64,000 nucleotides of DNA, from NCBI RefSeq assembly GCF_000379465.1, contig NZ_KB905414.1, positions 1 to 64,000 of the forward strand. The letters are read 5' to 3'. Positions 33,912-43,787 of the stretch are shown in pieces. How positions within the stretch are numbered: the stretch's first letter is position 1; each line of letters begins with the position of its first letter. The notes beneath the pieces were generated by a model. That model worked only from the letters and a program-made list of their open reading frames with translations. It was not told the origin of the DNA and made no database searches. This DNA comes from Sciscionella marina DSM 45152. GTDB lineage: Bacteria; Actinomycetota; Actinomycetes; Mycobacteriales; Pseudonocardiaceae. The translations under genes and the position numbers were made by a program.

Positions 33912-34793
33912 TCAGCCGTCCAGTAACTGTGCGGCCAGCGCGAGGGCACCGGCGACCGGCTCGCCCCGGTACAGGCACAGGGTGAGGTCGAAGCGTTCGC
34001 GAAGCAGATCGCCGATCCGGGCGGCGAGCCTCGGCTGGTTGACCAGCACGCTGCCGCCGCCGATGACCCGGCTGAACCGTCCACCCTGGACGAGAAGGTC
34101 GCCGATGTTGTCCACAAGGGACTGTGCGCCGGATTCGATCGCGGCGAGCGCCGCCGGTGAGCCCTGTCCGGCCACGGCGTGGACCTGGGGTGCCCACTCG
34201 GCCCAGGATCGCGCGGGCCGGCGTTGCATCCGGCGTTTCACCTCGCGCAGCGAATCGGCCCCGGCCAGTCGCAGCAGCACCGGAAGCAGCGGATCCCCGT
34301 CGAGTTCGCCGCGATCCTGGGCGTGGTGCAGCGCCCGCACCGCGTCCCGGACGGTGCCCCAGGCGGATCCGGGGTCACCGAGCAGCCAGCCCCAGCCCCC
34401 GGTGTGCAGTGCCCGCCCTTCGTGGTCCCAGGCGACCGCGACGGAACCGGTGCCCACGACCAGACCCGCGCTCGGCGCCGATTCCGCGGCGATGAGCAGA
34501 AACGCGTCGTTGACCACCCGGACCGGCGCACGCAACCGGGCCTGCACCGCGATGCGCAGCTGCTCGCATTCCGCTTCGGAGTCGCAGCCGTGCGCGCCGA
34601 GTCCCACGGCCGAGGGCGGGGTGCCGGTGAGCTCACCGAGCCAGGATTCCACGGCCCGGGCCTTGTCCTCGACCCCGAGCGCGGGCCAGTCCTCGGCCGA
34701 ATGTTCGGCGCGCGCGAGCACGGTGCCGTCCGGGCGGGCCAGGCGAAGCCGGGTCCGGGTACCGCCCGCGTCGATCCCGAGCAGTACGGTCAC
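33912..34793 (-). CDS. BadF/BadG/BcrA/BcrD-type sugar kinase (N-acetylglucosamine kinase-like)
   Basis: A 293-residue ASKHA-fold kinase. The phosphate-1 loop is GIDAGGTRTRLRLARPDG at the start, the glycine-rich LVVGTGSVAVAWD and GGWGWLLGDPGSAW segments lie near 115-150, and adenosine-binding VIGGGSVLVNQP is near 250. The GDPGSAW segment is typical of N-acetylglucosamine kinases in this family. The GTG 34793 start overlaps the stop of the upstream oxidoreductase by 4 bases; the frame is open further but overlaps that gene. It is the last gene of a three-gene minus-strand operon and should phosphorylate the sugar produced by the pathway. Confidence 0.85.
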   Translation of the reverse strand: MTVLLGIDAGGTRTRLRLARPDGTVLARAEHSAEDWPALGVEDKARAVESWLGELTGTPPSAVGLGAHGCDSEAECEQLRIAVQARLRAPVRVVNDAFLLIAAESAPSAGLVVGTGSVAVAWDHEGRALHTGGWGWLLGDPGSAWGTVRDAVRALHHAQDRGELDGDPLLPVLLRLAGADSLREVKRRMQRRPARSWAEWAPQVHAVAGQGSPAALAAIESGAQSLVDNIGDLLVQGGRFSRVIGGGSVLVNQPRLAARIGDLLRERFDLTLCLYRGEPVAGALALAAQLLDG

Positions 34794-35779
34794 GAGGTTT
34801 TCCGTGCGGTGGCGTAGAAATCCAGGCAGGCTGCCAGCGTGGCCCGCGCGGTGTGCACCGTCGCCGAAGGCTGCGCGCCGTGGCGCAGCACCGCGAGCAG
34901 GGCGTCCAGGTTGCCGAACGGATCCGGAGGCAGCGCCGTGAAAGACCATTCGCCACCGGCATCGGCCACCCCGAGGGACATCGAGTCGTAGTAGATCGCG
35001 CCCGCGCTGCCCACCAGCTGCACCCGGTTACTGGAACAGCCCGGCGGGGCGATCCAGGTGTCCTCCACGCCGACCACCGCGCCGTTGCCGAGCACCACGG
35101 TGGCGTGGCCGTAGTCCTCCACCGGGAGCTCCGGATACGCGAGGTTGGTCACGGTTCCGGTGATGGACGCGATCGGCGAATCGAACAGGTGCCGCAACCG
35201 GTCCAGGTGGTAGACGGAGTGGTCGATCCAGCCGCCGCCGGGAACGCAGGCGGGATCGGCGAACCAGCCCGGTGCCTCGGACCCGGGCCAGGATTTCGGC
35301 AGTCCACTGTGCATCGAGAAGGCGCCACTGCGCAGTTCGCCGATCCGGCCGGAACGCACGAGCTCGGCCAGCCGCCTGCTCAGCGGCGAATCCCGGCGCG
35401 CTTCGCTTGGCACATAACAGATCCCGGCCTGCTCGACGGCTTCGACGACGGCGTCGGCCTCGGCGAGGGTGCGCGCGAGCGGTTTCACCCCGATGATGTG
35501 CTTGCCCGCCCGCGCGGCGGCGATCGTCAGCGCGGGACTACGTTCCAGGCTCGGGAAACACGCGATCGCTTCGATTCCGTCATCGGCGAGCACCGCTTCG
35601 AAGTCCGTGCTGGTGCGCACCCCGCCGGTCAGCCGGGAGACGTGCGTGGCGCGTTCCGGATCGGGATCGGCGATCACCCGCAGATCCACCGCGGGGTCCG
35701 CGGCCGCGCGCTCGGCGAGCGGGATCGCCGCGTACCAGTGGTCGAGCCCGAGAATGCCGAGCCGAACGGGATTGTCCAT
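34790..35779 (-). CDS. Gfo/Idh/MocA family oxidoreductase, atypical catalytic motif
   Basis: A 329-residue NAD(P)-dependent sugar oxidoreductase. The Rossmann start LGILGLDHWYAAIPLAE departs from the usual GxGxxG, and the catalytic EKP motif reads GVKP in GKHIIGVKPLARTLAEAD near 96. The C-terminal sheet domain carries PGGGWIDHSVYHLDRLRHLF, with the conserved Asp-His in a DHxxYHLD pattern. The altered N-terminal motifs resemble family members that bind cofactor differently or are non-classical. It overlaps the kinase by 4 bases downstream and follows another Gfo/Idh/MocA gene by 17 bases. Confidence 0.88.
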   Translation of the reverse strand: MDNPVRLGILGLDHWYAAIPLAERAAADPAVDLRVIADPDPERATHVSRLTGGVRTSTDFEAVLADDGIEAIACFPSLERSPALTIAAARAGKHIIGVKPLARTLAEADAVVEAVEQAGICYVPSEARRDSPLSRRLAELVRSGRIGELRSGAFSMHSGLPKSWPGSEAPGWFADPACVPGGGWIDHSVYHLDRLRHLFDSPIASITGTVTNLAYPELPVEDYGHATVVLGNGAVVGVEDTWIAPPGCSSNRVQLVGSAGAIYYDSMSLGVADAGGEWSFTALPPDPFGNLDALLAVLRHGAQPSATVHTARATLAACLDFYATARKTS

Positions 35780-35796
35780 GGGTTCGCTCCAGGATT

Positions 35797-36897
35797 TCAG
35801 AAGGTGGTCGACAGGTCCACGAATCGCCCTTCGCGGGCGGAGGTCGCCACGCCCAGCATGATCTCCAGCGCATGCCGGGCGTGTTCGGCGCTGAGCACCA
35901 GCGGTGCGTCGTCGAGCAGCACATCGGCGAGGTGCGCGAGCAGCAGTGCCCTGCCGTAGGTGGCGCGGCGCTCATCGGCGGCCAGCGGCAGCTTCGGCTG
36001 TATCCAGCCGTCCACCCCGGGGACCGCGTCGGCCCGGTACACCTCGACCGCGGGGCCGTCCGGGGTGAGCAGGTTGAGCACCCCGCGCCTGCCGAACAGC
36101 TCGACCTTCGGGCTGCGCGCCGCGTGCACGTTGAACGTCCCGTCCACAACGGCGAACGTGGATTCCCCGAAGTCCAGCAGGAAAAGGCAGTTGTCCGGCG
36201 CGGTCACCGGCATCTCCAGCCCCTGGAACGGCCCGGCACGCACCACCCTGCTCGGCTCGGTGATCCCGGCGAACGCGGCGACCCGCCTGGCCGGGCCGAG
36301 GATCCCGGTGATCTCGTGGATCCCGTAGACCCCCATGTCCAGCAACGGTCCCGATCCCTCGCGGTAGAACCAGCTCGGATCGGATGGCCAGCCCTTCGGC
36401 CCGCCACCGGGTCCCGCGTGCGAGCTGCGCACCCTGGCGAAGGCGACCTTGCCGATCGCGTCCGCGCGCACGAGTTCCGCCGCCCGGGCATAGGGTTCGT
36501 GCAGCAGATCCGGCGGAGCGCACACCACGGTCCGCCCGGTCTCCCGCGCGGTCGCGATCAGTTCGTCCGCCTCGGCCATCGTCGCCGCGAGGGGTTTCTC
36601 GCTCACCAGATGCAAGCCGTGGTCCAGGATCGTGCGCGAGGTCTGCGCGTGCACCGGGATCGGGGTCAGGTTCAGCACCGCGTCGAGCTCGGCATCGGCC
36701 AGCATCGCCTCGAGCGAACCGTAGGCGTTCGGGATGCCGTACTCCGCGGCCACGGACTCGGCGAGTTCCGCGTCCACATCGGCGATCGCGGTGATCCGAA
36801 CCCGGTCGGCCAGGTGGTGCGTGTTCGGCAGCACGCCGTAGGAGACCGTCGCGATACCGCCGCTGCCCAGGATCCCGACCCGCAGTGGTACACCCAT
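35797..36897 (-). CDS. Gfo/Idh/MocA family oxidoreductase
   Basis: A 366-residue oxidoreductase with a canonical Rossmann start VGILGSGGIATVSYGVLPNT, the catalytic lysine motif VSEKPLAATMAEADEL near 98, and the substrate-domain segment GPLLDMGVYGIHEITGILGP with the conserved Asp and His. It is likely to oxidise a sugar or glycoside hydroxyl. ATG 36897 has GGAAGGTGGAG upstream, so the extension to 36963 is rejected. It is the first gene of the minus-strand arm of the sugar locus and faces the ROK gene. Confidence 0.9.
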   Translation of the reverse strand: MGVPLRVGILGSGGIATVSYGVLPNTHHLADRVRITAIADVDAELAESVAAEYGIPNAYGSLEAMLADAELDAVLNLTPIPVHAQTSRTILDHGLHLVSEKPLAATMAEADELIATARETGRTVVCAPPDLLHEPYARAAELVRADAIGKVAFARVRSSHAGPGGGPKGWPSDPSWFYREGSGPLLDMGVYGIHEITGILGPARRVAAFAGITEPSRVVRAGPFQGLEMPVTAPDNCLFLLDFGESTFAVVDGTFNVHAARSPKVELFGRRGVLNLLTPDGPAVEVYRADAVPGVDGWIQPKLPLAADERRATYGRALLLAHLADVLLDDAPLVLSAEHARHALEIMLGVATSAREGRFVDLSTTF

Positions 36898-36920
36898 GGC
36901 CGCTCCACCTTCCCTGATAC

Positions 36921-36932
36921 AGAAACGTTTCT
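36921..36932. promoter_or_regulatory. Perfect palindrome, candidate operator in sugar-locus promoter
   Basis: AGAAACGTTTCT, a perfect 12-base palindrome, 24 bases upstream of the oxidoreductase start in the 188-base divergent region. A second, imperfect element TAAGGAAACTTTA lies at 37031-37043 before the ROK gene. Likely binding sites for the ROK regulator or a LacI-type protein. Confidence 0.5.
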
Positions 36933-37085
36933 TGCCAGATAGTACAGAGACGATCGTCGCCATGCCAGACTGTCATTTCCCTGTTCACAACATAAACGGA
37001 CGATCAGCGGTAACCTCTTGCGCTTTTCGGTAAGGAAACTTTATGGTTATGCGACACGGTTGGCGCGAACGCGAGGAGGAACGTC

Positions 37086-38300
37086 GTGGCGGTGCGCGGA
37101 ACCCCGTCCTGGCTCGGGGACCAGAACGCGGCCCTTGCCTTGCGGTTGCTGCTCGACGATGGTCCGCTGAGCCGCAACAGCATCGGGGAACGCACCGGAC
37201 TGTCCAAGCCGACCGCCGCGCAGATGGTGTCGCGGCTGGAGGAAAAGGGGCTCATCGAGGCAGTCGGCGAGGAGTCGGCGGGGCGCGGGCCGAGCGCGGT
37301 GGTGTACGGCGTGCGCAAGGACATCGCCTACGGGGTGGCGGTGAACGTCGACCAGGACGGGGTCCGCTCGGCCATTGTCGACCCACTCGGCACCCGGTTC
37401 CCGGTTGCCGCCCGGTCCGCGGCGGAGATGCGCGGCAAACGAGGTGCGGCCAAGGATGTGGCGAACGCGGTGCTGCGTGCCTGCGAGTCCGCGCAGGTCG
37501 AACTCGCCGCGGTGCGCCAGGTGTGCGTGGGCGTGCCGAGCAGCATCGATCCGCGCACCGATCAGCTCAGCTCGGTGGAGGCGCTGCCCGGCTGGTCACG
37601 CACCAGCATCCGGCAACGGCTCGAGGAAGCCCTCGGCTGCGAGGTCCAGGTGGACAACGATGTGAACCTCGCCGCCGTCGCCGAGCGGGAGACCGAGGCG
37701 TTCGCCGGGAACGCCACCTTCGCGCTGATCTGGGTCGGCTACGGGGTCGGCCTCGCTGTGGACGTGGCGGGCACCCTGTTGCGCGGCGCCTCCGGGGGCG
37801 CCGGTGAGATCGGCAATCTCCCGGTGCCACACGGGGTTTTCGCGCCCGGAACCGAGGCAGGCGATCTGGAGGAACTGCTCGGCGCCGGGGCACTGGACCG
37901 GATCGGGCGGGAAACCGGCTGGTCGGAGCGCGCCTTCGAACAGGCGCTGGCCGGTGACGCACTGCCCACCGAAGTGCTCACCGCGTTCGCCCCACTGCTC
38001 GCCCAGGCGGTGATCCCGGTGCTCGGCGTGCTCGACCCGGAGGTCGTGGTGCTCGGCGGCCCGGTCGGACTCGCCGGTGGCGCCGAACTCGCCCGGCTGA
38101 CCAGCGCGGCGATCCGGGACCACACCCGGTGGAACCCGGAACTCATGCCCAGCCAGACCGAGGGGGACGCGGTGCTCGACGGTGCCCGCATCCTCGGCAC
38201 CCGGTATCTGCGTAGCTACCTCACCGAGCGCGCCGGTTCCACCGAGTCCACACAGGACCGCTCGCGCATCATCGCCGGCAATCTGCGCCGCATGAGCTGA
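37086..38300 (+). CDS. ROK family transcriptional regulator
   Basis: A 404-residue ROK repressor: an N-terminal winged helix (LSRNSIGERTGLSKPTAAQM followed by VSRLEEKGLIEAV at about 28-60) and a sugar-kinase-like ligand domain with VQVDNDVNLAAVAERE near 195 and GVLDPEVVVLGGPVG near 315. The zinc site CxCGxxGCxE of typical ROK proteins is absent; the place reads HGVFAPGTEAGDLEELLG. GTG 37086 is the start. It leads the plus-strand arm, divergent from the oxidoreductase/kinase arm, and is the natural regulator of the whole locus, probably sensing the imported sugar or its phosphate. Confidence 0.9.
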   Translation: MAVRGTPSWLGDQNAALALRLLLDDGPLSRNSIGERTGLSKPTAAQMVSRLEEKGLIEAVGEESAGRGPSAVVYGVRKDIAYGVAVNVDQDGVRSAIVDPLGTRFPVAARSAAEMRGKRGAAKDVANAVLRACESAQVELAAVRQVCVGVPSSIDPRTDQLSSVEALPGWSRTSIRQRLEEALGCEVQVDNDVNLAAVAERETEAFAGNATFALIWVGYGVGLAVDVAGTLLRGASGGAGEIGNLPVPHGVFAPGTEAGDLEELLGAGALDRIGRETGWSERAFEQALAGDALPTEVLTAFAPLLAQAVIPVLGVLDPEVVVLGGPVGLAGGAELARLTSAAIRDHTRWNPELMPSQTEGDAVLDGARILGTRYLRSYLTERAGSTESTQDRSRIIAGNLRRMS

Positions 38301-38345
38301 TCACGCAGCGGGGCGCCGAACACCGTCCCAGACCATAGGAGGTCC

Positions 38346-39671
38346 GTGGTGCGAGCAACGAAGCCGGCCACAGCCATCCCGGCGGTCGCCCTGGTCGCCG
38401 CGCTGATCCTCACCGGGTGCGGTATCGGCGCCGACGAGCCGGTCGCCAGAACCGCACCGCGGGAACTGACCGGGACCATCCAGCTCTGGCACCACTACAC
38501 CGATCGGGAGGCCGCGGTGATCCAGTCGGTGGTGCGCGATTTCGAACGACTGCACCCGGGCCTGCACGTGAATGTCCACAGTGGACAACAGGACACCAAG
38601 ATCACCCAAGTGGTTTCCTCCGGCGGGGATGTGGATGTGATGCTCACCAACGTCAACTCCACGCTCGGCACACTGTGCAAGACGATGGCCGATCTCGCGC
38701 CCTACATGGCCCGGGATCACGTGCGCGCGGCCGATTTTCAGGGCACCTTCGCCTCGGCCACCGCGTTCGACGACCGCCGGTGCAGCCTGCCGACCACCTC
38801 GGATGTGTACGGGCTGTACTACAACAAACGGCTCCTGGGGCGGGCGGGCTACCACGACCCGCCGAAAACCCTGGACGAGCTCGGCAGGATGGCGCTGAAG
38901 CTCACCACCTACAACCCGGACGGCTCGATCCGCACCCTGGGCTTCGATCCGCTGATCGGGTTCGGGCAGAATACATCCGGTACGGTGAGCGCCACCTCCG
39001 GGGCGCGGTGGATGCGCGGCACCGAAGCCACCACCGCCGCATCCAGGCAGTGGCACGAGATCCTTGCCTGGCAACGGGATCTGGTGAAAAAGATCGGGTA
39101 CCGCAAGCTGAAGGCGTTCACCGCGGGACTCGGTGACGAATGGTCGGCCAACAACCCCTTCCAGACCGGGCGGATCGCCATGGCGCTGGACGGCGAATGG
39201 CGGGTCGCCTTCGTCGATGAACAGGCACCGCACCTGGACTACGGCACCGCACCGTTTCCGGTGCTGGCCGGTAGCGGACAACCCTACGGCGGGGGCTATG
39301 TCTCGGCGGCCGATATCGGGATGAGCAAGCAGTCCGGGCACAAAGAAGCCGCGTGGGCACTGGTGAAGTTCCTGACCACGAACACCGGTGCCGCGGTCAA
39401 GCTCGCCAATGGCCTGAAGAACATTCCCACCCTGCGCCGCGCGGCGGACTCACCGGAACTGGAGGCCGGCCCGCAGTACCGGATGTTCATCGAGGCCTCG
39501 AAACATCCGGGCGCAAACACCAGCCCGATCACCGAGATCGGCGCCACCCTGGTCGCCACGATGAACGATTTCTGGACCACATACCAGGAAAACGGCGGGA
39601 ACCTCGACGAGGGACTGCGCGCGGTGGACACCGATATCAACAACGCGCTGAGCCTGCGCAGGCAGAAGTGA
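38346..39671 (+). CDS. ABC sugar transporter, substrate-binding lipoprotein
   Basis: A 441-residue extracellular solute-binding protein of family 1. The signal peptide ends in the lipobox LTGC at about Cys25, and the mature part starts after a short linker with GTIQLWHHYTDREAAVIQSV, typical for disaccharide or amino-sugar binders. A GTG-GTG pair forms the start with AGGAGG at 38338-38343, so 38346 or 38349 are both possible. Two permeases follow with 4- and 5-base gaps. No ATPase gene is present, as is usual for actinobacterial importers that share an MsiK-type ATPase. Confidence 0.93.
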   Translation: MVRATKPATAIPAVALVAALILTGCGIGADEPVARTAPRELTGTIQLWHHYTDREAAVIQSVVRDFERLHPGLHVNVHSGQQDTKITQVVSSGGDVDVMLTNVNSTLGTLCKTMADLAPYMARDHVRAADFQGTFASATAFDDRRCSLPTTSDVYGLYYNKRLLGRAGYHDPPKTLDELGRMALKLTTYNPDGSIRTLGFDPLIGFGQNTSGTVSATSGARWMRGTEATTAASRQWHEILAWQRDLVKKIGYRKLKAFTAGLGDEWSANNPFQTGRIAMALDGEWRVAFVDEQAPHLDYGTAPFPVLAGSGQPYGGGYVSAADIGMSKQSGHKEAAWALVKFLTTNTGAAVKLANGLKNIPTLRRAADSPELEAGPQYRMFIEASKHPGANTSPITEIGATLVATMNDFWTTYQENGGNLDEGLRAVDTDINNALSLRRQK

Positions 39672-39675
39672 CACC

Positions 39676-40662
39676 ATGACCAGTACCCGGAGTCTCCCCC
39701 GGCCCTCCGTCGCGAAACCACGACCCGCGATGCGCACCCGAAGCCTGCTCGCCTCACGGCTGCCGGTGTGGTCGATGATGATACTCGGGCTGATCGGTCT
39801 CGCGGTGTTCTTTCTCTACCCGCTGCTGGCGAACCTGTACTTCTCGTTCACCAACTATGATCTGGCCGGCGCGCCGCACTGGACCGGGCTGCGCAACTAC
39901 GTCTACCTGTTCACCCAGGATTCCCGGGTGGGCAAGGCGGCGCTGAACACCCTGTGGTTCGTGGTGATCCTGGTCCCGGTGCGGATGGTGTTCTCGCTCG
40001 GCATCGGATTGCTGTTGTCCCGGCGCAAAACGGCGCGGGGGTTCTGGCGCACGGTGTTCTATCTTCCCGCGCTCGTGCCCCCGGTCGCCTCGGTCGTCGG
40101 TTTCGTGTTCCTGTTCAATCCGGGCACCGGGCCGATCAACGCGGTACTGCGGCACCTGGGGATCACCGGTCCGCTGTGGTTCAACGATCCGGCGCTTTCC
40201 AAGCCCTCGTTGTTGTTGCTCGGGCTCTGGATGGCCGGGGATGTGATGGTGATCTTCCTGGCCGCGCTGCTCGACGTGCCCAAGGATCAGTACGAGGCGT
40301 GCGAGCTCGACGGCGCGAACGGCTGGCAGCGGCTGCGGTTCGTGACGCTGCCGAACATCCGGCCGGTGCTGTTGTTCTCCGCGGTCACCGGGGTCATCGC
40401 CGCGCTGCAGTACTTCACCGAGGCCGCAGTCGCCTCGATGATCGCGAACGGGAAGACCGGGATCGACGCGGGCACCGATCAGTTGCTCGGCTATCCCGAT
40501 GATTCGCTGCTCACCTACACCCAGTGGATGTACGTGCAGGGCTTCAACAGTTTCCAGCTCGGCTACGCCTCCACCATGGCCGTGGTGCTGTTCCTCATCG
40601 CCGCCGCGGTGATGGCGGTGCTGCTGCGGCGGGCCGGGCTGTTCACGAAAGCGCAGGGGTGA
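39676..40662 (+). CDS. ABC sugar transporter permease, MalF-like
   Basis: A 328-residue permease with six helices; the first follows a polar 30-residue N-terminus (MMILGLIGLAVFFLYPLLAN). The cytoplasmic EAA loop, which docks the ATPase, reads EACELDGANGWQRLRFVTLP near 210. It starts 4 bases after the binding-protein stop. It should form a heterodimer with the next gene product. Confidence 0.93.
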   Translation: MTSTRSLPRPSVAKPRPAMRTRSLLASRLPVWSMMILGLIGLAVFFLYPLLANLYFSFTNYDLAGAPHWTGLRNYVYLFTQDSRVGKAALNTLWFVVILVPVRMVFSLGIGLLLSRRKTARGFWRTVFYLPALVPPVASVVGFVFLFNPGTGPINAVLRHLGITGPLWFNDPALSKPSLLLLGLWMAGDVMVIFLAALLDVPKDQYEACELDGANGWQRLRFVTLPNIRPVLLFSAVTGVIAALQYFTEAAVASMIANGKTGIDAGTDQLLGYPDDSLLTYTQWMYVQGFNSFQLGYASTMAVVLFLIAAAVMAVLLRRAGLFTKAQG

Positions 40663-40667
40663 CCGCG

Positions 40668-41498
40668 ATGACCGTGCGGAAACGAGTCCTGACGGTGTTC
40701 GCCGAGCACGCGATCCTCATCGCGCTCGGGATCATGTTCCTGGTTCCGGTGGTGTTCGTCGCGCTGACCTCGGTCATGAACAGCGGGCAGACACTGACCG
40801 GCGCGCTGTGGCCGAAACCGTGGGAGTGGTCGAACTATCAGCGTGCCTTCGAGAAGGCCCCGGTCGCGTCCTGGTTCCTCAACTCGCTGCTCTACGCGGG
40901 CGGTTCGACGCTGTTCATGCTGGTGTCCTCGGTGCCGATGGCCTATGTGCTCGCCCGGGTGCGGATCCGGTTCGCCAACCCGATCTTCTTCGCGGTGATC
41001 GTGGCGATGCTGTTGCCACCGCAGGTGATCCAGGTGCCGATCTACGTGCTGTGGGCGCACCTGCACCTGGTCGGCACGCTGTGGCCGCTGGTGCTGCCGC
41101 ACCTGTTCGGGCACGCGTTCTCGATCTTCCTGCTGCGCCAGTTCTTCCTGACCATCCCGCAGGAGTACACCGATGCGGCGCGGATCGACGGCAACGGGGA
41201 ATGGGGAATCCTGACCCGGGTGATGGTGCCGATGGCGAAACCAGGAATCGCGGCGGCCTCGATCTTCATGTTCTTCCAGTCCTGGAACGACTACTACGGC
41301 CCGCTGCTGTACACCTCGGAGAACCCGGACAACTGGCCGATCGCCTACGGGCTGGCCAGTTTCCACGGCACGCACAGCACCGACTGGGGCGTGATCATGG
41401 CGGTCACCGTGCTGGCCACGCTGCCGGTGGTGGTCGTGTTCTTCTTCGCCCAACGGGTTTTCGTGGAAGGCATCACGCTCACCGGCGTCAAAGGGTAG
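40668..41498 (+). CDS. ABC sugar transporter permease, MalG-like
   Basis: A 276-residue permease with six helices beginning AILIALGIMFLVPVVFVALT. The EAA loop is YTDAARIDGNGEWGILTRVM followed by VPMAKPG near 170. ATG 40668 has AGGGG at good spacing; a GTG at 40659 overlapping the stop of the first permease is the alternative. C-terminal VEGITLTGVKG is the typical MalG-family ending. It partners the preceding permease. Confidence 0.93.
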   Translation: MTVRKRVLTVFAEHAILIALGIMFLVPVVFVALTSVMNSGQTLTGALWPKPWEWSNYQRAFEKAPVASWFLNSLLYAGGSTLFMLVSSVPMAYVLARVRIRFANPIFFAVIVAMLLPPQVIQVPIYVLWAHLHLVGTLWPLVLPHLFGHAFSIFLLRQFFLTIPQEYTDAARIDGNGEWGILTRVMVPMAKPGIAAASIFMFFQSWNDYYGPLLYTSENPDNWPIAYGLASFHGTHSTDWGVIMAVTVLATLPVVVVFFFAQRVFVEGITLTGVKG

Positions 41499-41514
41499 GA
41501 ATGATTGGAGAGCA

Positions 41515-42789
41515 ATGGCGGAGAAACCGCTCGGCATCGGGATCATCGGATCCGGGTTCATCGCGCACTTCCACGTGCGGTCCTGGCAGTCGGTGCGCGG
41601 CGCGGACATCGTGGCGGTGGCCTCGCGCTCGGCCGAACGGGCCCGGGAACTCGGTGCCTATGCCGAGAATCTCGGTGTCGGCCGGGACGTCCGCGGTCAT
41701 CAGGACATCGCCGAACTCGTGCGCGACGAACGGGTGGACGCGGTCTGGGTGCTGACCCCCAATCACACCCGGGTTCAGGTCATCGAGCAGATCTGCGCGG
41801 AAGTACGCTCCGGGCGGGCGAGCCTGCGCGGGATCGCGGTGGAGAAACCCCTCGGCCGCAACCTCGCCGAGGCACGTGCGGTGGCCGAAGCGGTCCATGC
41901 GACCGGAATCCCGCATGGTTACCTGGAAAACCAGGTGTACGCGCCGCGGCTGACCAGGACGAGGGAACTGATGTGGGCTCGCGGTGCCCGGCGTTCCGGC
42001 TCCCCGTATCTCGCGCGGTGCACCGAGGAACACTCCGGCCCACACGCCCAGTGGTTCTGGGACAGCGAGGCCCAGGGTGGCGGCGTACTCAACGATCTGA
42101 TGTGCCACTCGCTCGAAGCGGGCCGGTTCCTGCTCACCCCGCCGGGCACCGATCCGGACCAGTGGCTGCGGCCGGTCTCGGTCACCGCCACCATCGCCTC
42201 GCTGCGGTGGGGCCGGGACCGCTATGCCGCGCAACTGGCGCAGGCCTACCCGGGTTTGCAGGATTACCGGCACGATCCCGCGGAGGACTACGCGAGCGCC
42301 ACGTACACCTTCGTCAACGGGGATGGCGAACCGGTGATCGTGGAAGCCATGACCTCGTGGGGATTCATCGGTTCCGGGATGCGGCTGTCCTTCGAACTGC
42401 TCGGCCCGGAGTACTCGATGAACTCGAACTCCCTGCGCGGTGACGCGGACGTGTTCTTCTCCGGGCGGCTCGGCGATGATCCCGATGCGGGCGCGGAGGA
42501 GATGCTGGAGAAGCAGAACGCCGAGCAGGGCCTGATCCCGGTCATCGCCGACGAACCGGCCAGTTATGGCTACACGGCGGAGAACGCGCACCTCGTCCGG
42601 ATGTTCAGCGCGGGACAACAGCCCGCCGAATCCCTGGACAGCGGGGTTTCGGTGACCGAACTGCTGATGGCCGCCTACTACGCGGCGGAAACCGAGACGG
42701 TACTGCGCTGGCCGGTGGACCTGGCCGAGTACGTACCCGCCGTGGCGACGCGCACCTGGCACCCACGCGGACGAAGGGATCGACCATGA
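41515..42789 (+). CDS. Gfo/Idh/MocA family oxidoreductase, long form
   Basis: A 424-residue oxidoreductase. The Rossmann start IGIIGSGFIAHFHVRSWQSV is canonical, the catalytic motif is GIAVEKPLGRNLAEARAV near 108, and the substrate domain includes AQGGGVLNDLMCHSLEAGRF near 185. It is longer than the other two by about 60-90 residues owing to loops in the sheet domain, and resembles annotated myo-inositol or galactose dehydrogenase-like proteins only at the family level. It overlaps the SIS gene by 4 bases (ATGA). Confidence 0.9.
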   Translation: MAEKPLGIGIIGSGFIAHFHVRSWQSVRGADIVAVASRSAERARELGAYAENLGVGRDVRGHQDIAELVRDERVDAVWVLTPNHTRVQVIEQICAEVRSGRASLRGIAVEKPLGRNLAEARAVAEAVHATGIPHGYLENQVYAPRLTRTRELMWARGARRSGSPYLARCTEEHSGPHAQWFWDSEAQGGGVLNDLMCHSLEAGRFLLTPPGTDPDQWLRPVSVTATIASLRWGRDRYAAQLAQAYPGLQDYRHDPAEDYASATYTFVNGDGEPVIVEAMTSWGFIGSGMRLSFELLGPEYSMNSNSLRGDADVFFSGRLGDDPDAGAEEMLEKQNAEQGLIPVIADEPASYGYTAENAHLVRMFSAGQQPAESLDSGVSVTELLMAAYYAAETETVLRWPVDLAEYVPAVATRTWHPRGRRDRP

Positions 42790-43787
42790 CCGGCTTCGGT
42801 TACCAGGACGGGCGCGCGGACCAGCTCGCCGCGCTGGCCGAACTCACCCGCACCCTGCCACAACGGCTGGCACGGCGGGAATTGCCGCGCCCGGAGAGCC
42901 GGGTGCTACTCGCCGGGATCGGGGCCAGCCATGCCGCGCTCGCTTCCCCGCTCTACCACTTGCGCGCGGGCGGGATCGACGCGATGCGCACCGACTGCTC
43001 GGATTTCCCCGCAACCGCACCGGTTCCCGCGCTCGTGCTCGCCGTCTCACAGAGCGGGCGCAGCGCCGAGACCACCGAGCTGATCACCCGGCTGGGCGCA
43101 GCTGGTGCACATACCCTCGCGATCACCAATGCCGAGCAGAGCCCACTGCGCGAGGCGGCGCGGGACTGCCTCGCGCTCGGGGCCCGGCGGGACAGCCGGG
43201 TGTCCACGGTCGGATTCGTGCTCACCTACGCCGCACTCGCCATGCTCACCGAACTGCTCACCACCGGTGCCGTGGACGCGCGCTGGACCGGGCTCGCGGA
43301 CCGGATCGCCCACGCCGTCACCGAAGCCACCCCCACCATCGCCGAATTCGGCACGGCCATCGCGGATGCCGGATCCGTGGATGTGGTCGCCGCGGCCGAA
43401 TCGCTGAGCACGTGTGAGGAAACCGCGCTGTTGCTGCGCGAAGGCCCACTGGTGCCCGCGGCCGCCTACGGAACCCGCGGATACCTGCACGGTCCGGCGG
43501 ACTCGGCGAGCACCCGGACCGCGCACCTGCTGATCGGCGGCGACCGGGAACTGCGCCTGGCCGGTCAGCTCGCCTCCGCGGGGACACGCGTGCTCACCGT
43601 GACCGAAAGCGCGGCCGAACCGAACGGCGGCTGGGCGGTGCAGGTCCCCACCGGGCTGACCGCACCGCAACGCGCCCTCGCCGAGATCTGCGTGCTGCAG
43701 GAGCTCGTCTCGGTCCTGGCGCACGAGCGAGGGGTGCCGATCGACGATCCGGTGTTCCGGCAGGACGACACCAAGATCGCCGGATGA
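42786..43787 (+). CDS. SIS-domain sugar-phosphate protein (AgaS/GlmS isomerase-like)
   Basis: A 333-residue double-SIS protein. The first SIS domain contains LAVSQSGRSAETTELITRLG near 80-99, the phosphosugar-binding motif; the second includes REGPLVPAAAYGTRGYLHGP, then LLIGGD near 245. This layout is that of the isomerase half of glucosamine-6-phosphate synthase and of AgaS-type deaminase/isomerases. With the kinase and ABC importer it suggests breakdown of an amino sugar by phosphorylation and deamination or isomerisation. It ends the plus-strand arm, with only 3 bases to the convergent PPOX gene. Confidence 0.88.
   Translation: MTGFGYQDGRADQLAALAELTRTLPQRLARRELPRPESRVLLAGIGASHAALASPLYHLRAGGIDAMRTDCSDFPATAPVPALVLAVSQSGRSAETTELITRLGAAGAHTLAITNAEQSPLREAARDCLALGARRDSRVSTVGFVLTYAALAMLTELLTTGAVDARWTGLADRIAHAVTEATPTIAEFGTAIADAGSVDVVAAAESLSTCEETALLLREGPLVPAAAYGTRGYLHGPADSASTRTAHLLIGGDRELRLAGQLASAGTRVLTVTESAAEPNGGWAVQVPTGLTAPQRALAEICVLQELVSVLAHERGVPIDDPVFRQDDTKIAG

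Follow-up and report, generated by a model that had tools for sequence, protein, structure and literature searches.

How is an imported sugar used by a locus that encodes an ATP-binding cassette (ABC) importer, a BadF-family kinase, a SIS-domain protein and three oxidoreductases of the Gfo/Idh/MocA fold, and in whose nine proteins a domain scan found no conventional glycosidase domain? This question is raised by the genome of Sciscionella marina DSM 45152 (8.5 Mb, 86 contigs), in a 64,000-nucleotide stretch of its contig 35 that is hereafter called the window. The answer that we favour, with about as much belief as doubt, is that the locus is a paralogue of the csnREFG module in which the GH4 redox glycosidase was exchanged for Gfo/Idh/MocA enzymes, and that it imports a glucosamine-containing oligosaccharide or glycoside, which would be cleaved through oxidation at C3, phosphorylated and deaminated. 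The locus itself is real, conserved and undescribed, its theme being known from csn and its enzyme set being new. A preliminary description of this DNA had already proposed an undescribed catabolic system; this holds for the enzyme set, and literature searches found no published description of the gene set, but the regulator and the importer are sister to those of the characterised csnREFG.

The nine genes (33912-43787) are arranged in two divergent arms, in the order and on the strands that had been claimed. The left arm (minus strand) runs from OxR2 to OxR1 and the BadF-family kinase, OxR1 to OxR3 being the three oxidoreductases, and the right arm (plus strand) from the ROK-family regulator to the binding protein, permease A, permease B, OxR3 and the SIS protein. 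Overlaps of the ATGA or GTGA type had been described on both arms. Three are present in the sequence (GTGA for OxR1/kinase and permease A/permease B, ATGA for OxR3/SIS), but between the remaining neighbours within each arm lie 4 to 45 bases, and the overlaps are not continuous along the arms. No importer ATPase is encoded by the nine genes according to the domain scan; since actinobacterial importers of such type usually use a shared ATPase, the one serving this importer is probably supplied in trans.

The kinship of the right arm was sought in csnREFGHK of Streptomyces and relatives. According to excerpts of its published descriptions, this cluster comprises a chitosan-oligosaccharide ABC importer, a ROK repressor with the CsnR box AGGAAANTTTCCT, a hydrolase of family GH4 and a putative kinase (PMC6097792, PMC5635096, PMC6520443, PMC3048496). 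GH4 genes were searched for in six genomes that carry the locus wholly or partly, giving thirteen matches, and the surroundings of seven were read. Three of them are csn-like clusters (L155, L159 and L161) with ROK, binding protein, two permeases, GH4 and BadF kinase, the last being part of a fused gene call in L155, and in all three a CsnR box with at most one mismatch precedes the ROK gene. The window proteins are 36–39% (ROK), 33–36% (binding protein), 50–51% (permease A) and 53–57% (permease B) identical to those of csn. When six whole genomes were ranked against permease B, its orthologues came first (72–79%), the csn permeases second (53–56%, 326–329 bits, in the three genomes with csn) and all others at 41% or less. 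For the binding protein, the only matches in three genomes at E<=1e-15 were the orthologue (2/3) and CsnE (3/3). CsnR was likewise second by bit score after the ROK orthologue in the three genomes (178–192 bits), with a smaller margin, other ROK proteins reaching up to 141 bits and one being 43% identical over a shorter stretch. Finally, 44 different permeases were placed in a tree after removal of five identical rows, and the window type and csn joined at 100/100, as separate groups supported at 100/99 and 100/100. On the strength of these sequence rankings and of the tree, the regulator and importer of the right arm are a paralogue of csnREFG.

The two systems thus agree in the order of ROK regulator, binding protein and the two permeases, and both have a BadF-family kinase and, directly after the permeases, a redox-type enzyme, which is GH4 in csn and OxR3 in the window. 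In contrast, PF02056, the family of csnH, matches none of the nine locus proteins, OxR1, OxR2 and the SIS protein are additional, and the kinase lies on the divergent arm; PF01869 is found in both kinases, which are 28% identical in their aligned parts. That the locus is itself the csn orthologue was discarded, as two of the three csn genomes, those of Embleya and Streptomyces SPB074, carry it as a separate copy (nine and eight genes, respectively). The presence of both loci in one genome argues for a different substrate or linkage. The csn importer was not found in the genome of S. marina, in which the next match to permease B is 30% identical, and its single GH4 match is 54 kb away, beside an importer of 30–31% identity.

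Gene order was compared by scanning the OxR2 alignment (A2) against one genome per species (84,980 species), which gave 108 relatives, of which the best 80 loci were kept. Embleya hyalina (L033), Microbacterium resistens (L035) and Microlunatus speluncae (L040) have the full set of nine genes with the same two divergent arms, and Streptomyces sp. SPB074 (L034) has eight of the nine, no match being seen for the kinase; the layout is therefore not due to chance. Two short Streptomyces contigs (L031 and L032) hold the portion of the locus that fits on them. Within the four larger loci OxR3 (71–78%) and the permeases (66–82%) are best conserved, and the SIS protein (48–58%), OxR1 (51–60%) and the kinase (41–57%) least. 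Possible remnants are Streptomyces sulfonofaciens (L030), the third csn genome, with only ROK and OxR2 in the 21 kb fetched, and Microlunatus parietis (L038), with OxR2 and OxR3 in pieces. In a class-wide sample of 394 genomes (E<=1e-60, best 4 or 5 candidates per genome scored), OxR2 was found in 5, OxR3 in 12 and OxR1 in 1, S. marina itself being counted. The 20-kb surroundings of the other four OxR2 genes gave no kinase, SIS, ROK or OxR3 match, but only importer genes of 24–33% identity and Gfo/Idh matches below 30%. These counts and the recurrent layout describe a locus that is rare, scattered and coherent.

OxR1 and OxR2 also recur together outside this layout. OxR1 scored above 400 bits in 25 of the 80 OxR2 loci; L018, not coming from the scan, was excluded, and L045 was counted as lacking OxR1 at this line, though tblastn showed a 43% piece. 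Genes for NagA, NagB, PIG-L, SIS or BadF above 200 bits accompanied 13 of the 25 loci with OxR1 and 3 of the 55 without it (Fisher p 5e-6), or 7 of 19 and 3 of 55 when the six window-type loci were removed (Fisher p 0.002), values to be read knowing that the 80 loci are related and hence not independent, and that the amino-sugar hidden Markov models were built from clusters in the same loci, so that other families may escape in loci without OxR1. As the 80 loci were found via OxR2, they cannot reveal OxR1 without OxR2; a direct OxR1 search (alignment A5) of the class genomes at the same threshold returned S. marina only, by which strict pairing is neither shown nor contradicted. Opposite the OxR2-OxR1 pair, Pseudolysinimonas kribbensis (L043) encodes a ROK protein, an importer, NagB, a TIM barrel, a further Gfo/Idh enzyme and a NagA-like gene, and Fodinicola (L049) and L018 encode SIS, BadF and ROK proteins. 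In L045 and L048 a 619-residue gene call matching permease B adjoins a NagA-like gene, and tblastn matches to permeases A and B there indicate that the two may be fused. OxR2 homologues without OxR1 were observed in L064 and similar Herbidospora and Acrocarpospora loci next to alcohol dehydrogenases, a DeoC/LacD aldolase, an FGGY kinase and an amidohydrolase (one member per cluster scanned), which is a different pathway with the same OxR2 family.

OxR3 was found in a third setting. Homologues of 53–61% identity in 11 other genomes of the class (L132-L142) close a ribose-type importer operon made of Peripla_BP_4, an ABC ATPase and two BPD_transp_2 proteins, with a ROK regulator in 9 of the 11; the domains were scanned in one locus and assigned by similarity in the others. 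Neither OxR1, OxR2 nor SIS genes occur in the 15–19.5 kb read around them, nor is another catabolic gene common to these operons, which may be a minimal system where OxR3 alone processes the imported sugar. Since the OxR1-OxR2 pair and OxR3 are met in these other contexts, the window locus unites a csn-like importer, the pair and OxR3, which live apart elsewhere.

That the three Gfo/Idh/MocA enzymes are different, as stated in the preliminary description, was borne out by local identities of 31% over 157 residues between OxR1 and OxR2 and 29% over 216 between OxR1 and OxR3, OxR2 and OxR3 giving no significant BLASTP match. As a profile, OxR2 matches 9m3d (DgpA1) at positions 2–364 of 368 with 103 bits, and the best solved matches of OxR3 are 6nor and 6jw6, titled GenD2 and KanD2. 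The fold of OxR1 is that of the Gfo/Idh/MocA family, near GenD2 and levoglucosan dehydrogenase, and it bears GLDHWY where the glycine-rich GxGxxG/A dinucleotide fingerprint is expected. No non-redox enzyme was noticed by description among its best 50 structural neighbours, which is not evidence of absence. Judging from its rows in A5, OxR1 seems to represent a Gfo/Idh/MocA family of its own, marked by an invariant loop of the GLDHWY type and by the lack of EKP; VKP is found in 14 of the 25 rows, the others having I, N or T before KP. The three proteins score 35 to 54 bits with the levoglucosan dehydrogenase model NF052479 (curated cut-off 650) and 52 to 80 bits with TIGR04380, IolG myo-inositol 2-dehydrogenase (curated cut-off 355).

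The kinase and the SIS protein give the locus its amino-sugar theme, which the preliminary description had recognised and which is supported here. The best NCBIfam model of the kinase is NagK_SO3507 (47 bits, far under the cut-off of 370), and its solved relatives are the hexokinase 2e2n, the MurNAc/GlcNAc kinase 8zo3 and NAGK. For the SIS protein the closest models are NagB-II and GlmS, all under cut-off (NagB_SO3506, NF046059, gave 50 bits against a curated 430), and its profile matched the structure of glucosamine-6-phosphate deaminase 8eol (76 bits) and then GlmS (74 bits). All of 7 sequences compared share Glu219, His235, which belongs to an HGP motif, and Lys330, which lies close to the C-terminus; the Glu and the His align with 8eol and the Lys falls beyond that alignment. 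The Glu, His and C-terminal Lys of the NagB-II/GlmS type, whose roles we take to be catalytic, are thus all found. By these sequence features the SIS protein most likely acts on an amino-sugar phosphate and is likely a deaminase of the NagB-II/GlmS type; GlmS/NagB-II-like SIS protein is a better label than the SIS isomerase proposed before. A classical Nag route within the locus was discarded, as neither NagA nor a PF01182 NagB was found among the nine proteins by domain scan; elsewhere in the genome NagA exceeds its family cut-off on contig C24 and two PF01182 proteins are found on C13 and C8. In view of the SIS protein, the previous statement that NagB is lacking is doubtful. Compared with the NagA-NagB-NagK route, the kinase and the SIS protein belong to the same superfamilies, whereas they remain under the equivalog cut-offs and NagA is not in the locus.

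Both arms had been proposed to share one promoter region, and the 188-base gap between them does contain two operator-like sites, AGAAACGTTTCT and AAGGAAACTTTAT, each within a conserved block of alignment A6. This alignment comprises the gap and five of seven orthologous gaps, all of Streptomyces and Embleya, with L035 and L040 left out. Both sites have the GAAA/TTTC halves of the CsnR box, and two sites in a single divergent gap would fit one ROK regulator controlling both arms.

As to the substrate, operator binding, each enzymatic step, the order of steps and the division of labour among the enzymes, we infer the following. The ROK repressor would act at the two operators on both arms, and the importer would take in a glucosamine-containing disaccharide or glycoside. 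OxR3 and the OxR2/OxR1 pair would then free the amino sugar by C3 oxidation, elimination of the glycosidic bond, hydration and re-reduction, the last closing the redox cycle. Once freed, the amino sugar would receive a phosphate at C6 from the BadF kinase and would then be isomerised and deaminated to fructose-6-phosphate by the SIS protein. As the GH4 gene of csn follows the permeases and OxR3 has that place in the window, the simplest reading of the comparison would be that redox cleavage of a glucosaminide was kept and the type of enzyme changed. Oxidation around phosphorylation had been singled out as the unusual part, and redox cleavage of this kind has close parallels: excerpts of the literature describe cleavage via oxidation, elimination, hydration and reduction for GH4, the levoglucosan enzymes, GH109 and GH188 (PMC7676230, PMC10755693), a similarly closed redox cycle through which RgNanOx opens an anhydro bond (PMC7535918) and C3 oxidation of a C-glycoside by DgpA (PMC12724307).

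Several results weigh against this proposal. No TIM-barrel enzyme for elimination and hydration was detected by domain scan of the nine proteins, and these two steps would thus be left to OxR3 itself or to OxR1. A simple oxidising and reducing pair is not assured, because OxR1 is without a normal NAD fingerprint, and as a profile it is closest to 1,5-anhydrofructose reductase. The solitary OxR3 of the ribose-type operons fits a self-sufficient enzyme but a plain dehydrogenase as well. The binding protein is 33–37% identical to CsnE, so that its ligand may differ, and the CsnR box had no match in the window at up to 2 mismatches. In addition, 12 of the 25 OxR1 loci showed none of the amino-sugar genes sought, and the NCBIfam matches of the oxidoreductases, kinase and SIS protein all lie far under cut-off, that is, no close characterised enzyme is available.

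The known redox systems resemble the locus in part. Like the levoglucosan pathway LgdA-LgdB1-LgdB2-LgdC of Bacillus smithii, it has a sugar ABC importer together with at least two Gfo/Idh/MocA-type enzymes, the same sequence of C3 oxidation, elimination, hydration and reduction would operate, and levoglucosan dehydrogenase is among the top structural neighbours of OxR1. However, elimination and hydration are there due to two annotated sugar phosphate isomerases that the locus does not have, and levoglucosan has no amino group. The NAD-dependent glycosidases GH109 and GH188, the latter acting on sulfoquinovosides, use a Gfo/Idh/MocA-type fold as a redox glycosidase, but OxR1 is only 14–15% identical to GH188 structures. 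Membership of GH109 was discarded for OxR1, OxR2 and OxR3, which lack the string GGHGG, the catalytic loop motif of that family according to a reference title quoted in PMC10755693. With the DgpA/DgpBC cleavage of C-glycosides the locus shares OxR2, closest to DgpA1 over its whole length; in contrast, an AP_endonuc_2 protein is absent and genes of amino-sugar type are present instead. Next to OxR2, a TIM-barrel gene of clusters c39/c40 stands in 10 of the 80 loci (AP_endonuc_2 in the two members scanned). A bolder version of our proposal, which we regard as doubtful, is that a complete redox glycosidase is split over the three Gfo/Idh/MocA-fold proteins, where OxR1, without ordinary NAD binding, would be a non-redox partner performing elimination or hydration on the 3-keto product of OxR2 and would stand in for the TIM-barrel lyases that act in the pathways for levoglucosan and C-glycosides.

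Other explanations were weighed against the favoured one. It is somewhat unlikely, yet it deserves attention, that a rare amino sugar is converted and no bond is cleaved, one carbon being oxidised and re-reduced with inversion to glucosamine or galactosamine before the kinase and SIS deaminase act. Two or three Gfo/Idh enzymes beside a kinase and a deaminase would suit such a conversion, as would the ribose-type importer adjoining OxR3 elsewhere, typical of small sugars, the ROK protein without helix-turn-helix match, likely a kinase, in 4 of those 11 loci, and the sugar and inositol dehydrogenases among the solved relatives. However, the importer of the locus is sister to an oligosaccharide importer, and a conventional hydrolase to open an oligosaccharide is not in the locus. 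It is distinctly improbable that the locus serves a glucosaminyl-cyclitol or similar pseudo-disaccharide, for instance an aminoglycoside fragment or GlcN-inositol, the precursor of mycothiol, and that one or two of the oxidoreductases act on its cyclitol part. The matches to the inositol dehydrogenase model (under its cut-off) and to GenD2 and KanD2 agree with it, and PIG-L deacetylases are encoded in 4 of the 80 OxR2 loci, 3 of these having OxR1 above 400 bits, but further cyclitol genes are absent among the nine and the kinship with csn suggests glucosamine oligomers. Finally, we give hardly any credence to a deglycase pathway, in which the SIS protein would be an FrlB-like deglycase of a phosphorylated glycosylamine or Amadori compound, accompanied by oxidoreductases of MocA/opine type, since the putative fructose-amino-acid-6-phosphate deglycase 3eua does match the SIS alignment but, at 52 bits, well under the deaminase and GlmS structures, the kinase is of the BadF family and not PfkB, and the importer is akin to that of csn.

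The coordinates are collected in Table 1. Between 33700 and 44000 no sigma-70-like site was found and terminator-like sites numbered 6 against 4.0 expected, scans that say little for an actinobacterium, and the window contains no tRNA genes. About 39 kb past the window end (L117:15354-18008, contig C35), the genome encodes a protein of 884 residues that combines a PIG-L deacetylase domain with NPCBM-associated and CBM9 domains. Its neighbours include the single GH4 match, a PfkB kinase and two permeases of an importer, and this may be a further locus for amino-sugar glycans.

Table 1. Positions in the window of the genes and control elements of the locus.
Feature	Position	Strand	Basis
BadF/BadG-family sugar kinase, GTG start, likely amino-sugar kinase	33912-34793	minus	PF01869 48 bits, cut-off 31.5
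OxR1, Gfo/Idh/MocA fold, GLDHWY replacing GxGxxG dinucleotide fingerprint	34790-35779	minus	
OxR2, Gfo/Idh/MocA oxidoreductase, closest solved relative DgpA1	35797-36897	minus	PF01408
Divergent control region separating the arms (188 bases)	36898-37085		sequence, alignment A6
Operator-like palindrome AGAAACGTTTCT, OxR2 side	36921-36932		conserved block
Operator-like site AAGGAAACTTTAT, ROK side	37032-37044		conserved block
ROK-family regulator, CsnR paralogue	37086-38300	plus	PF00480 + winged helix
Extracellular solute-binding protein, CsnE paralogue	38346-39671	plus	PF01547/PF13416
ABC permease A, CsnF paralogue	39676-40662	plus	PF00528
ABC permease B, CsnG paralogue	40659-41498	plus	PF00528
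OxR3, Gfo/Idh/MocA oxidoreductase, at csnH (GH4) position	41515-42789	plus	PF01408/PF22725
SIS-domain protein, likely amino-sugar-6-phosphate deaminase/isomerase	42786-43787	plus	PF01380

The kinship with csn makes the theme of this locus less strange than the preliminary description held, and what remains notable is that other enzymes stand in the place of GH4 and that the OxR1 family is an odd one. For annotation, a SIS protein beside a BadF kinase should not be taken as a missing deaminase step. Within a very large fold family, OxR1 and its relatives, which keep the GLDHWY loop and recur beside OxR2, are testable candidates for a new kind of activity. If the proposed pathway is true, actinobacteria have swapped the GH4 enzyme of a known chitosan-sugar module for unrelated enzymes of the same chemistry. 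This would be a clean case in which one type of operon exchanged an enzyme for non-homologous ones, and new amino-sugar glycosidases could be drawn from it.

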